From the NCBI GenBank assembly GCA_015272215.1, contig JACYMD010000093.1:1-64000 (forward strand): a stretch of 64,000 bases of DNA, written 5' to 3'. The stretch's first letter is position 1; each line of letters begins with the position of its first letter. A program made the position numbers and the translations under genes. Below are positions 11,856 to 16,114 of this stretch, one piece after another. Below the pieces are notes generated by a model. That model did no database searches, was not told the origin of the DNA, and saw only the letters and a program-made list of their open reading frames with translations. Source of the DNA: Rivularia sp. T60_A2020_040. GTDB taxonomy: Bacteria; Cyanobacteriota; Cyanobacteriia; Cyanobacteriales; Nostocaceae.

Positions 11856-13169
11856 CTAAGTTGTATACTCCGCATTAATCTTCACGTAATCGTAACTCAA
11901 ATCGCATCCCCAAGCTTTACCTGCACCCGAACCATTGCCAACACTCACGTCAATTATTACCGGATTATCTATCCTTTGCGTATTTACCGTATCTCGAACA
12001 ACAGTTAAATCATTACTATTACTAGTCGCGACAAAATCTGGAGGTAAAGAAGATTCCGCTGCTGTTTGTTTCAAATATGCACTCGCTGCTTTTCGATCAA
12101 ATTCCAGGGGTTGTCCTTTTTCCATTAATAAAAAATCCCCCATTTTAATTCTTAAATCACTTTGCTCAAATGGTACACCTGCACGTCCAGCAGCAGCAGC
12201 AATTCTTCCCCAATTTGGATCGCGTCCAAAGATTGCAGACTTGACTAACGATGAACCAGCAATGGTTTTAGCTATTTTCAACGCTGATTTTTGATCCGAT
12301 GCACCGCTGACTTGCACTTCTATTAAACAAGTTGCACCTTCACCGTCGCGAGCGATGGCCTTTGCTAAATGTTGACAAACTGCGGTTAACATTGCTTCTA
12401 ATTTCTCAGCTTCTGCACTCATTTCGGTTATCGCTGGGGTACGAGATTGTCCGTTAGCTAAAGCAATTAAACTATCATTAGTACTAGTATCCCCATCAAC
12501 GGTAATTGCATTAAAACTCTTATCAGCAGCGCGACTCAACATTTCTTGCCATAATCCAGGAGAAACCGCAGCATCGCAAGTCACAAACGCCAACATTGTC
12601 GCCATATTCGGATGAATCATTCCCGAACCTTTGGCAATTCCGCCGACTCGCACTGGTCTATCATGTATAGTTGTTTCTAAGGCAATGGATTTAGTTACTA
12701 AATCTGTAGTAATTATCGCCTTTGCGGCTGCATCGGAACCAGTTTCCGAAAGTGCTTCTACTAACTTGGGTATACCTGTTTTCAAAGCATCCATCTTAAT
12801 TCTTTGCCCAATCACCCCAGTTGAAGCCAGCAACACCGACTTTGAAGAAATATTCAGCGCTTGCCCCAAAATCATCGCACTTTCGAGCGCATCCAACCAA
12901 CCTTGATTACCCGTAGAAGCGTTAGCCTGTCCCGCATTACACAGAATCGCACGAGCGCTGTGTGCCGCAAGCAACCGCTGACGACAATAATCTACACAAG
13001 CCGCAGTCACCTGAGAAATTGTGAACACACCTGCGGCTATCGCCTCTACATCTGAAACAATCAATGCTAAATCTGGCGCACCTGAAGGTTTCAGCCCTGC
13101 GGCGATTCCAGTTGCTTTATATCCCTTCGGTGCTGTAACACCACCACTTATTTCCCGCCACTCACTCAT
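11856..13169 (-). CDS. argJ: Bifunctional glutamate N-acetyltransferase/ornithine acetyltransferase
   Basis: This 437-residue protein is ArgJ, which transfers the acetyl group from N-acetylornithine to glutamate in the cyclic arginine pathway and may also use acetyl-CoA. The precursor self-cleaves before the nucleophilic threonine in the motif KGSGMIHPNMATMLAF. The NWGRIAAAAGRAGV and GSGAGKAWGCDLSYDYV stretches are typical of the beta chain. The start has GGGGAAG upstream (on the minus strand). The gene stands alone, with the small-RNA-like array upstream of it. Confidence 0.96.
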   Translation of the reverse strand: MSEWREISGGVTAPKGYKATGIAAGLKPSGAPDLALIVSDVEAIAAGVFTISQVTAACVDYCRQRLLAAHSARAILCNAGQANASTGNQGWLDALESAMILGQALNISSKSVLLASTGVIGQRIKMDALKTGIPKLVEALSETGSDAAAKAIITTDLVTKSIALETTIHDRPVRVGGIAKGSGMIHPNMATMLAFVTCDAAVSPGLWQEMLSRAADKSFNAITVDGDTSTNDSLIALANGQSRTPAITEMSAEAEKLEAMLTAVCQHLAKAIARDGEGATCLIEVQVSGASDQKSALKIAKTIAGSSLVKSAIFGRDPNWGRIAAAAGRAGVPFEQSDLRIKMGDFLLMEKGQPLEFDRKAASAYLKQTAAESSLPPDFVATSNSNDLTVVRDTVNTQRIDNPVIIDVSVGNGSGAGKAWGCDLSYDYVKINAEYTT

Positions 13170-13272
13170 TACTCTTCCCCTACATTTTGATCACCGCAAT
13201 CAGAGGGGATTATATCAATATATTAGTCAACACTTAATGGTAACTTATTAGTTATTAATGGTTAGGAGTTAG

Positions 13273-13303
13273 TTGACAGTTGACAGTTGACAGTTGACAG
13301 TTG
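13273..13303. repeat. TTGACAG heptamer repeats
   Basis: Four to five direct copies of TTGACAG lie upstream of argJ. The same heptamer occurs at 31096-31196 and at the end of phnL (38211-38252). Confidence 0.8.
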
Positions 13304-13352: not shown

Positions 13353-13448
13353 AAAAAAAAGAGAGAGCCACTTGGTAGCTCTCCGGATCATCAGGGTGCA
13401 TCTACTTAACATAGTATATCATTAATTGCCCAGGGGGTGATACCCCTT
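13353..13448 (-). ncRNA. Small-RNA-like unit 1 of a tandem array
   Basis: Read on the minus strand, the unit begins with a dyad (AGGGG at 13432-13436 against CCCCT at 13443-13447) centred on the -35 position. A -10 hexamer TATACT follows (13418 down to 13413). The predicted transcript starts near 13406 and contains the core AGATGCACCCTGATG. It ends in a stem with arms GAGAGC and GCTCTC (13363-13383) followed by a T-rich tail. Predicted RNA length is 45-55 nt. This unit is farthest downstream, nearest argJ. Similarity in layout to NsiR1 arrays of heterocystous cyanobacteria is an inference. Confidence 0.7.
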
Positions 13449-13523
13449 AGTTAAGTTTTGATTAAGTTTTCGTAAATAATTTGTTTGCGCTTCAGTATTA
13501 TTATCTATAAGTAGGAAAAAAGC

Positions 13524-13619
13524 AAAAAAAAGAGAGAGCCACTTGGTAGCTCTCCGGATCATCAGGGTGCATCTACTTAACATAGTATATCATTAGTTGT
13601 CCAGGGGGTGATACCCCTT
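13524..13619 (-). ncRNA. Small-RNA-like unit 2 of a tandem array
   Basis: This is a near-identical copy of unit 1, shifted by 171 bp, with the same dyad, TATACT box, AGATGCACCCTGATG core, terminator stem and T-tract on the minus strand. The spacer between units 1 and 2 is also conserved, which indicates recent tandem duplication. Confidence 0.7.
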
Positions 13620-13694
13620 ATCTAAATTTTGATTAAGTTTTCGTAAATAATTTGTTTGCACTTCAGTATTATTATCTAGAAGCAGGAAAAAGGC

Positions 13695-13788
13695 AAAAAA
13701 AAGAGAGCCACTTGGTAGCTCTCCGGATCATCAGGGTGCATCTACTTAACATAGTATATCATTAGTTGTCCAGGGGGTGACACCCCTT
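13695..13788 (-). ncRNA. Small-RNA-like unit 3 of a tandem array
   Basis: This third copy is shifted by 169 bp from unit 2 and has small changes: GTGTCAC in the dyad loop and a shorter AG run next to the A-tract. The -10 box, RNA core and terminator stem are unchanged. Confidence 0.7.
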
Positions 13789-13842
13789 ATTTAAATTTTT
13801 GTGAACTTTTTACGAAGAAATGGGGATTAAATATAAAAAAAT

Positions 13843-13936
13843 AAAAAAGAGAGCCAGTTATATATAGCTCTCTAAACATCAGGGTGCATCTGATTATCAC
13901 ATAATACCATTTATGACATGAGGGATTGTACCCCTT
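13843..13936 (-). ncRNA. Small-RNA-like unit 4 (diverged)
   Basis: This copy differs most but keeps every functional part. On the minus strand there is an AGGG/CCCT dyad, a TATTAT -10 box, the core AGATGCACCCTGATG and a terminator with arms AGAGAGC and GCTCTCT. The terminator loop has been replaced (TATATATAACTG), and a T-rich tail follows. Retention of the stem with a changed loop argues for selection on the RNA. Confidence 0.65.
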
Positions 13937-14012
13937 TGCAAAATTGTTTGATCTAAATTATTTTTTAATAATTAATTTGATTGCGATCGCGTAGTGTAAG
14001 GGAAGTTATTTC

Positions 14013-14211
14013 ATATCTTGCACCATCAAAACTCCTAACTCAAAATAATTACTGATTGTTTGACTTCATTCTTACCCGCCTGGGACTGCAAGTCCCAGTC
14101 TAATAGCAGAAGTCCATTAAAATGGACTAAAATATTATATTTTTATTTTAGTAATATTTTTATTTATATTTTTGATTATCTAGTTAATTATGCGTAGGGT
14201 GCAAGATGTGA
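14013..14211. mobile_element. MITE-like element, copy A (inside the small-RNA array)
   Basis: The element is about 199 bp with terminal inverted repeats: ATATCTTGCACC at the left and GGTGCAAGATGTGA at the right. Two internal hairpins are present, GGGACTGCAAGTCCC (about 14082-14096) and AGTCCATTAAAATGGACT (14111-14128). It has no coding capacity. Copy B at 16361-16558 is nearly identical; more diverged copies lie at 28119-28258 and 35365-35500. It separates small-RNA-like units 4 and 5. Confidence 0.8.
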
Positions 14212-14248
14212 GTTATGGCGCTATTATCCCGATGCAGTATAAATTTCC

Positions 14249-14343
14249 AAAAAAAAAGAGAGCCACTTGGCAGCTCTCCAGATCATCAGGGTGCATCTAC
14301 TTAACATAATATAGCATTTTACGGCTGAGGGGCGACACCCCTT
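14249..14343 (-). ncRNA. Small-RNA-like unit 5 of a tandem array
   Basis: This is the copy farthest upstream on the minus strand. It keeps a dyad (AGGGGTGTCGCCCCT), a TATATT -10 box, the AGATGCACCCTGATG core and a terminator stem. Its terminator has a compatible change in the upper stem (CTGCCAAGTGG instead of CTACCAAGTGG), with a nine-T tail. Confidence 0.7.
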
Positions 14344-14518: not shown

Positions 14519-14579
14519 TAAGTAGTGCAAGCGTCTCGCTTGCTATTTCCCAAAGGTAGGCTTTTCGGCCCACACTACT
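14519..14579. repeat. Interspersed AGTAGTG...CACTACT repeat
   Basis: The stretch is bounded by AGTAGTG and CACTACT and contains the perfect hairpin GCAAGCGTCTCGCTTGC. A related partial copy begins at 52087. It lies just beyond the gatB stop codon. Confidence 0.6.
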
Positions 14580-14629: not shown

Positions 14630-16114
14630 TTATTCAAGCAAAGCTTGGAGTTTTTGATCTACCAACTCATTGGTTAATTTAGGATCTGCGCGTTTTCCAG
14701 TCTTTTTGAGAACTTGTCCGACGAAGAAACCTTTAACGTTGGTTTTACCGCTGCGATATTTTTCGACTTCTTTGGGGTTTCCAGCGATAGCTTCATCGAT
14801 GAGAGGTTCGAGTACTGATGGATCGGTAATTAGCTTTTCACCAGCAAAAATATCTTTAGCAGAGCTACCTTCAAGTAACTCTGGTAATTTCTCTTTGGCT
14901 TTAGCATTACTAATCTCACCTTTGTCAATTAGCTTAGCAACTTCAGCTAAATTACTTGGTGTCAATTTGATATCAGAAATATTCAGTTTTTGTTTGTTGA
15001 GATAAGCAGCAATATCACCCATAATCCAGTTTGCCGCAGTTTTGGAATTTGCTCCCTTCTCCACAGTAGCTTCAAAATACTCCGCTGTAGCACGCTCTTC
15101 AGTTAAGACTCTAGCATCGTATGCAGAAAGTCCCAACTCGGTTTCATAATAATGGCGTTTTTTTGCGGGTAACTCTGGTAATTCGCTTGCCCACTTGTTT
15201 AATTGCTCTTGTGTTACCTCAATGGGAGTTAAATCGGGTTCAGGAAAATAACGATAATCGCTAGAACCTTCCTTAATTCTCATGCTAATGGTACGTTGAG
15301 AACCTTCTTCCCAAAGACGAGTTTCTTGAACAATTTTTTCACCAGATTCAACCGCTGCAATTTGACGTTCAATTTCGTATTCAATGGCTCTTTGAATCGC
15401 ATTGAACGAGTTCATATTCTTAATTTCGACTTTTGTGCCAAATTCCTTTCGTCCCACTGGACGCACGGAAATATTCACATCACAACGCAGCGAACCTTCT
15501 TGCATATTACCATCGCTGACACCGAGATAGCGGACAATTCGGCGTAACTCTTGAGCGTATTCGGCAGCTTCTTGTCCAGAACGGATATCGGGTTCGGAAA
15601 CGATTTCAATTAACGGTATACCGGCTCGATTATAGTCTACCAGAGAATAGCTCGAACCAGAAAGGCGATCGCTACCGGCATGAACCAATTTACCAGCATC
15701 TTCTTCCATATGCAGCCGAGTAATACCAATCCTTTTGCGAATTGGATTACCATCTTGATCAACTAACTCAATTTCGATAAAACCGTGTTCGGCAATGGGT
15801 AAATCGTATTGAGAAATTTGGTAATTTTTGGGTAAATCGGGATAAAAATATTGTTTGCGATCGAACTTGCTGTATTTAGCGATTTGACAATTAAGAGCCA
15901 AACCTGCTTTTACAGCGTATTCTAATACTTTTTCATTGAGTACCGGCAAAACTCCAGGTAAACCCATACAAACCGGGTCGATGTTAGTATTAGGTTCAGC
16001 ACCGAATTTTGTAGAGCTATCGGAGAAAATCTTAGTTAAGGTTGCCAGTTGACAATGGGTTTCTAGACCAATTATCGCTTCGTAATCAGTTTTTACAGTT
16101 GTAGCAGCAGTCAT
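14630..16114 (-). CDS. gatB: Asp-tRNA(Asn)/Glu-tRNA(Gln) amidotransferase subunit B
   Basis: This 494-residue protein is GatB, the subunit that recognises misacylated tRNA and activates the carboxylate with ATP so that GatA-derived ammonia can amidate it. The N-terminal signature IGLETHCQL, the GLPGVLPVLN motif and LPDLPKNYQISQYDLPI-type stretches are all present, as is the cradle motif LHMEEDAGK. The C-terminal YqeY-like tail (GFFVGQVLKKTGKRADPKL) is complete. Length is normal. The gene stands alone; the small-RNA array follows it on the same strand. Confidence 0.96.
   Translation of the reverse strand: MTAATTVKTDYEAIIGLETHCQLATLTKIFSDSSTKFGAEPNTNIDPVCMGLPGVLPVLNEKVLEYAVKAGLALNCQIAKYSKFDRKQYFYPDLPKNYQISQYDLPIAEHGFIEIELVDQDGNPIRKRIGITRLHMEEDAGKLVHAGSDRLSGSSYSLVDYNRAGIPLIEIVSEPDIRSGQEAAEYAQELRRIVRYLGVSDGNMQEGSLRCDVNISVRPVGRKEFGTKVEIKNMNSFNAIQRAIEYEIERQIAAVESGEKIVQETRLWEEGSQRTISMRIKEGSSDYRYFPEPDLTPIEVTQEQLNKWASELPELPAKKRHYYETELGLSAYDARVLTEERATAEYFEATVEKGANSKTAANWIMGDIAAYLNKQKLNISDIKLTPSNLAEVAKLIDKGEISNAKAKEKLPELLEGSSAKDIFAGEKLITDPSVLEPLIDEAIAGNPKEVEKYRSGKTNVKGFFVGQVLKKTGKRADPKLTNELVDQKLQALLE

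Follow-up and report, generated by a model that had tools for sequence, protein, structure and literature searches.

A window of 64,000 nucleotides from Rivularia sp. T60_A2020_040 (contig JACYMD010000093.1, positions 1 to 64,000, to which window coordinates refer) carries five tandem units on the minus strand at 13353-14343, which a preliminary description read as small-RNA genes, each with its own promoter dyad and terminator. This locus raises the question of whether the units are copies of NsiR1 that lie away from hetF or an sRNA family of their own, and which regulator acts on the dyad. Judging from sequence comparisons, we consider it likely that the array consists of five independent tandem genes for a HetR-controlled, seed-pairing trans-acting antisense sRNA, a sister to NsiR1 that predates heterocysts.

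Anatomy of the tandem units

Matches of the exact 15-nt core AGATGCACCCTGATG together with the anatomy of the units placed all five where they had been described. In each unit an AGGGGT..CCC dyad is found 44-28 nt before the core, which bears out its claimed position near -35. The -10 boxes named earlier are present as well, in every unit in the extended form TGnTATACT, TGnTATTAT or TGnTATATT, and each unit ends with the expected GAGAGC/GCTCTC hairpin followed by a T-run. The length of about 95 bp given for the units holds from dyad to terminator; as a spacing it does not, since the distances between units are irregular (171, 169, 148 and 407 bp).

Unit 1 carries the HetR-type operator AGGGGTATCACCCCCTG at 13431-13447, with the 5-nt spacing of the published hetP operator, and the extended -10 element TGATATACT at 13413-13421. 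The -10 hexamer at 13413-13418 is consistent with the 5' end proposed near 13406, so that an sRNA of about 54 nt is predicted at 13353-13406, with the invariant core AGATGCACCCTGATG at 13389-13403 and an intrinsic terminator (hairpin and T-run) at 13353-13383; its hairpin is predicted at -14.5 kcal/mol and its 5' core is unpaired. Unit 2 has its operator at 13602-13618, the same -10 element at 13584-13592 and a predicted sRNA at 13524-13577 (core 13560-13574, terminator 13524-13554), and unit 3 has them at 13771-13787, 13753-13761 and 13695-13746, respectively (core 13729-13743, terminator 13695-13723). Unit 4 is a diverged copy with one arm base of the operator altered (AGGGGTACAATCCCTCA, 13919-13935), the -10 element TGGTATTAT at 13901-13909 and a predicted sRNA at 13843-13894 (core 13877-13891, terminator 13843-13872); as described, its terminator loop is longer and the stem unchanged. 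In unit 5 (operator AGGGGTGTCGCCCCTCA at 14326-14342, -10 element TGCTATATT at 14308-14316, predicted sRNA at 14249-14301 with core at 14284-14298 and terminator at 14249-14278) an upper-stem A-U pair is replaced by G-U, the compatible change noted before. All of these features are on the minus strand, as are the conserved neighbors gatB upstream (14630-16114) and argJ downstream (11856-13169). The position between these two genes and away from hetF was confirmed; hetF is located on contig C91.

The predicted sRNA of each unit thus measures about 52-54 nt and consists of a mostly unpaired 5' core and an intrinsic terminator. Folding predicted a terminator hairpin for every unit and an unpaired 5' end in units 1-3, with some additional 5' pairing in units 4 and 5. 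An unpaired conserved seed joined to a Rho-independent terminator, the combination by which a trans-acting antisense sRNA is recognized, is found in the units of the array.

Two further repeat-like stretches lie near the array. Downstream of it, at 13271-13300, about four tandem heptamers (CTGTCAA on the minus strand) form a short tandem repeat. Just downstream of gatB, at 14549-14565, we noticed CCCAAAGGTAGGCTTTT (minus-strand reading AAAAGCCTACCTTTGGG), a stretch also present upstream of HU in a relative (L019), which looks like a small dispersed repeat.

Conservation of the units and of their genomic position

All five occurrences of the exact 15-mer in the 6.0-Mb genome lie within the array. 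The GTDB family of our genome, judging from its named members the heterocystous one, is represented by 192 genomes; the exact core was found in 176 of them and the reversed pattern in none, a few of the 176 matches being HU leaders and not sRNAs. Since the 15-mer is confined to the array in its own genome and is so frequent in the family, a chance origin of the array can be excluded. The units of relatives were collected by the exact 15-mer, and core invariance among them therefore follows from the selection; one genome (G446) has a one-base core variant.

Conservation of core and stem in related genomes had been named as a point on which the earlier reading would stand or fall, and both are conserved. 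In 46 copies from relatives, chosen for diversity, a standard pair is present in 87.7% of the stem cells; 2 of 500 shuffles came out equally high. Cells in which both partners of a stem pair have changed number 26, which 1 of 500 shuffles matched; they fall on four of the ten stem pairs, a spread that 91 of the 500 shuffles equal.

A scan of named genomes returned at least 115 stretches with the core, from non-heterocystous and heterocystous genera alike. The genera among the matches listed include Leptolyngbya, Phormidesmis, Nodosilinea, Limnothrix, Lyngbya, Planktothrix, Moorena and Microcystis in addition to heterocystous ones. The sRNA family is not limited to heterocystous cyanobacteria. 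For 118 loci, these stretches and three more, we searched for the neighboring genes at an E-value of 1e-10. Among the matches listed, gatB was detected in 69 loci, upstream and on the same strand every time, and argJ in 51, downstream and on the same strand every time. At 32 of the 118 loci neither gene was among the matches listed, because the copy lies elsewhere, the neighbor has diverged or it lies beyond the stretch.

A HetR-type operator at the -35 position

The HetR site of hetP has been given as GAGGGGTCTAACCCCTC with GGGnnnnnCCC as the structural requirement (PMC4192349), and a structure of HetR bound to gcgaggggtctaacccctcat has been described (PDB 4YRV, PMC4649674). The units carry AGGGGTnnn(A/G)CCCC, with exact GGGnnnnnCCC arms of the 17-bp hetP operator in units 1, 2, 3 and 5 and one arm base off in unit 4. 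Dyad and hetP operator have in common the GGGG/CCCC arms, the 5-nt spacer and often the TCA flank (CCCCTCA). Unlike the hetP operator, the dyad is centered near the -35 position of an sRNA promoter, its spacer sequence is variable and one arm base is changed in unit 4. The idea that an activator acts through the dyad is supported by this comparison, and the match in sequence and spacing points to HetR as the probable regulator.

Among the units of relatives, counted where a hairpin was recognizable and the contig end not too near, GGGN5CCC is located at -43 to -40 in 165 of 244 distinct units, and a further 68 deviate from it at one of the six arm bases. The 75 nt read per unit (n=244) contain exact matches to GGGN5CCC at no positions other than -44 to -39. 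In one Anabaena/Nostoc genus, each of the 13 genomes has one degenerate operator arm (GGGTGTTACTCC type).

The exact palindrome AGGGGTnnnRCCCC occurs nine times in the genome. Four of these sites belong to the array, one lies about 1.07 kb upstream of a gene of the HetP family and one is inside a coding frame. Exact palindromes outside the array include C34:6354 (L323), C23:21825 (L322), C53:91548 (L328) and C132:23657 (L330), located near a GGDEF-protein gene, near other genes and upstream of the HetP-family gene just mentioned. These four sites are candidate members of the HetR regulon of this genome. When one mismatch is allowed, the genome has 51 sites, fewer than the 115 of the reversed control, and single degenerate sites therefore mean little.

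From the unit anatomy, the conservation, the synteny, the operator match and the co-occurrence with HetR described below, we infer the following mechanism. A HetR dimer would bind the GGGGTnnnRCCCC palindrome, which replaces the -35 box, and would activate from this site centered near -35, with RNA polymerase starting at the extended -10 element. Each unit would be expressed separately and end at a terminator of its own. The seed AGUAGAUGCACCCUGAUG, mostly unpaired at the 5' end of the RNA, would then pair with translation-start regions of target mRNAs and block their translation, and the tandem copies would raise the dose of the sRNA.

Co-occurrence with HetR

The genome encodes a HetR of 299 aa (NF009718 at 599.7 bits). 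We searched 386 cyanobacterial genomes for the C-terminal domain of HetR (HetR_C) and for the sRNA with a family model (R1). HetR_C was detected in 79 genomes; R1 matched all 79 at E<=0.01 and 76 of them at E<=1e-7. The hairpin of R1 is out of register, with three of seven pairs right, so that it is mostly a sequence model; the units of the window are still found at E<1e-14. R1 also picks up NsiR1 copies, and a weak match therefore need not represent a gatB-type unit; the three weak matches in HetR-positive genomes (G073, G226 and G476) may be NsiR1-type units. The R1 and NsiR1 searches were run with the stricter filters of Infernal, which lose weak matches, and the R1, HetR_C and NsiR1 genome lists were matched up by hand.

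In the 307 HetR-negative genomes R1 gave 24 matches: seven Microcystis genomes (genus g67), G196, G395, G464 and, in distant genera and with E-values of 2e-4 to 0.009, 14 weak matches that are probably due to chance. NsiR1 itself scores above its cut-off in 79 of the 386 genomes, 37 of them outside the family of our genome. HetR is present in 77 of the 79, the exceptions being G395 and G464; conversely, the HetR-positive genomes G242 and G262 gave no above-cut-off NsiR1 in the 386-genome search.

We then examined promoters, taking the best unit of each genome. Outside the own family, the palindrome is present in all 30 HetR-positive genomes examined (of 37), nearly always at -42 to -40. It is absent from eight of the nine HetR-negative genomes in which a unit was read, namely the seven Microcystis genomes and G196, which lacks the operator and keeps the order gatB-sRNA-argJ. 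The ninth, the metagenome assembly G395, keeps the operator in two units. A search for full-length HetR in G395, G464, G196 and two g67 genomes found none. Since Microcystis is one lineage, these genomes amount to two independent concordant cases and one exception.

These data bear on whether the dyad might be the site of another regulator, with HetR co-occurring by shared ancestry only. HetR binding to the dyad is deduced from a sequence match, and G395 retains the dyad without HetR, as another regulator would allow. In PCC 7120, argJ was looked up under the gene number that we take it to have in that strain. Table 1 of the HetR ChIP-seq study of PCC 7120, with 26 of the 38 peaks, shows none in the vicinity of argJ (PMC4192349). 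Against this stand the match of the dyad to a 17-bp operator at a fixed position and the joint absence of dyad and HetR from two lineages, Microcystis and G196, that retain the sRNA. We therefore regard a different regulator as unlikely and keep HetR as the preferred candidate.

In the Microcystis loci (L044, L052, L064 and L262-L268) core and terminator are kept, and the promoter is quite different. Neither gatB nor argJ was found near the unit in the three named loci L044, L052 and L064.

Target search and HU leaders

Prediction of targets for the core had been proposed together with the array, and its outcome was not positive: in 1544 start regions of the own genome no clear excess of seed complementarity was observed. 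The scan covered 1.94 Mb, about a third of the genome, with the window inside the sample and the HU gene of the organism outside it. The best match was argB at -23.8 kcal/mol, which we do not claim as a target since 29 of 120 shuffled seeds did equally well or better at the top. As many matches as for the real seed were obtained with 40 of the 120 shuffled seeds at <=-20 kcal/mol and with 14 at <=-18 kcal/mol. A genome-wide search for near-complements of the core returned, beyond the sRNA copies, one single-mismatch site (C49:14080) and no clear target. With the leaders of the neighboring genes, the seed paired no better than shuffled controls in the case of argJ, and for gatB the value fell inside the range of the shuffles.

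Among the 192 family genomes, ATGNATCARGGTGCA was found at 24 sites in 23 genomes, compared to six for the reversed pattern; the own genome has no such site. Twelve of the 24 sites are located 52-54 nt upstream of the HU start (in seven genomes of genus g4, one of g30, one of g3 and three of g7). Duplexes of these HU leaders with the seed of the window are predicted at -21 to -36 kcal/mol, compared to shuffled means near -14; as the sites were collected by searching for the complement, these energies are not independent evidence. For two of the seven HU leaders examined, the real seed was surpassed by one or more of 300 shuffles, and the whole leader is conserved, not just the site complementary to the core. 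In the HU leaders L352-L358, L363, L364, L370, L372 and L373 the ATG of a small ORF (MHQGASVENLK-like) is covered by the perfect or near-perfect complement of the core. This ORF closes a short distance ahead of the HU start, except in L372, where it is frame-shifted and continues into HU. HU (hanA) is reported as essential for heterocyst differentiation in the title of a reference listed in PMC10811720.

The strong conservation of the core over many genera and the lack of a clear complementarity excess in the own-genome sample would also fit a sponge-type RNA whose core titrates an RNA-binding protein and does not pair with mRNAs. NsiR1, which has the same core, acts by base pairing, however: NsiR1.4 represses alr3234, a verified NsiR1 target, by binding over its start codon, and a two-base mutant of alr3234 that changes Tyr2 to Asp favors NsiR1.1 (PMC9045159). 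In our view this mutant is best explained by a AUGUAUCAGGGUG start that pairs with the shared core, which would assign the core a role in pairing. Together with the HU-leader complement in four genera, this makes a protein sponge improbable, and we retain pairing with mRNAs as the presumed mode of action.

Relation to NsiR1

The array had been called NsiR1-like. This stands as far as the core and the Rfam matches are concerned; by score, terminator, promoter and locus the units are not NsiR1 as defined. The NsiR1 5' core GUAGAUGCACCCUGAU is present in units 1, 2, 3 and 5, and unit 4 has UC for the first GU. A search with the Rfam model of NsiR1 (RF02399) at the gathering threshold gave no match in the array. 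With permissive settings the five units scored 34.9, 34.9, 33.8, 32.8 and 21.1 bits, compared to a cut-off of 39 bits, four of them at E-values of 7e-5 to 2e-4.

The same genome contains four above-cut-off NsiR1 copies outside the array, two of them about 0.5 kb from hetF on contig C91. All four have TCCGGA where the array has the palindrome. TCCGGA is what we take to be the DIF1 motif; the array has the HetR-type palindrome in place of a DIF1 motif, and its flanks are gatB and argJ instead of hetF. NsiR1 is further marked by expression that is specific to heterocysts and dependent on HetR. Single diverged NsiR1-like units were also observed at C52:65688 (L167) and C61:7385 (L172), on contigs other than that of hetF; the unit at C61:7385 has an altered core, GATGCACCATGATA, and no TCCGGA.

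Array and NsiR1 thus have in common the 5' core, the short format of seed plus terminator, tandem copies with their own promoters and a link to HetR, on which NsiR1 depends (PMC9045159). The array differs in its HetR-type palindrome as opposed to a TCCGGA-type element, in the GAGAGC/GCTCTC terminator, in the gatB-argJ locus and in scoring below the Rfam cut-off, and its family, unlike NsiR1, extends to Microcystis, in which HetR was not detected. The common core and the four Rfam matches could be taken as a sign of ordinary NsiR1 copies that have moved away from hetF. Scores below 39 bits, the different terminator, operator and locus, the four NsiR1 copies in the same genome with two beside hetF, and the separate conserved synteny of the array family make such a displacement quite unlikely. 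The same core combined with a different terminator, promoter and locus, next to separate NsiR1 copies, instead identifies the array as a sister family that shares the seed.

A short peptide (MHPDD...) encoded by the units from the ATG within the core is very improbable, and this reading was rejected because of its frame and stop codons. The reading frame continues into the terminator, in unit 4 it is closed after MHPDV, and in relatives it is shifted by insertions that follow the core; in addition, inspection by eye showed no ribosome-binding site.

NsiR1-type units are also found outside the own family. We read 16 stretches there with other family matches: seven contain at least one TCCGGA unit, five have the HetR-type palindrome, three have only near-forms (e.g. 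TCCTGA) and in one no core was found. The TCCGGA units are those of L300, L301, L304, L307, L311, L314 and L315. This distribution suggests that the TCCGGA promoter type also predates heterocysts.

Two sRNAs from the literature can be compared by description. RNA162 of Limnospira indica, a non-heterocystous strain with hetR, was detected by RNA-seq, measures 57 nt, is described as resembling NsiR1 and was repressed two-fold in one irradiated strain (PMC8400943); it may be another member of the array family. The sRNA 4547237r of Nostoc PCC 7120, verified by Northern blot, is with 51 nt very short like the RNA of the array; unlike the array family it is reported in heterocystous strains only, the comparison resting on its description and not on sequence or locus (PMC4734099).

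Implications for HetR and NsiR1

In the open-access literature searched, a body that leaves aside the 2010 founding paper on NsiR1 and the first papers on the hetP operator, we found no description of a gatB-linked sRNA family with a HetR operator; PMC4734099 may contain it unnamed. New here are an sRNA family with the NsiR1 seed and a HetR-type operator, as judged from its sequence match, and a separate, widely conserved locus. The NsiR1 seed now belongs to a wider family with two promoter types, the HetR palindrome and the TCCGGA type. A sister family seems to be missed by the Rfam NsiR1 model when its cut-off is applied, and studies of NsiR1 targets would do well to allow for another RNA that carries this seed and is present in the same cell.

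Many filamentous cyanobacteria that form no heterocysts possess HetR (PMC4192349, PMC3655545). The locus described here offers a concrete, conserved candidate for a HetR output, usually at the same genomic place, also in the non-heterocystous Leptolyngbya and Planktothrix, and the array family may reveal the role of HetR prior to the origin of heterocysts. More tentatively, and with the balance slightly against us, we suggest that the circuit from HetR to the sRNA is older than heterocysts, that the gatB sRNA would be a main, conserved direct output of HetR in non-heterocystous filamentous cyanobacteria, and that heterocystous lineages would later have expanded the NsiR1 branch of the seed family into a developmental regulator at hetF. 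Since both promoter types occur outside the heterocystous family of our genome, the RNA-based part of heterocyst control may have been adapted from an older circuit.
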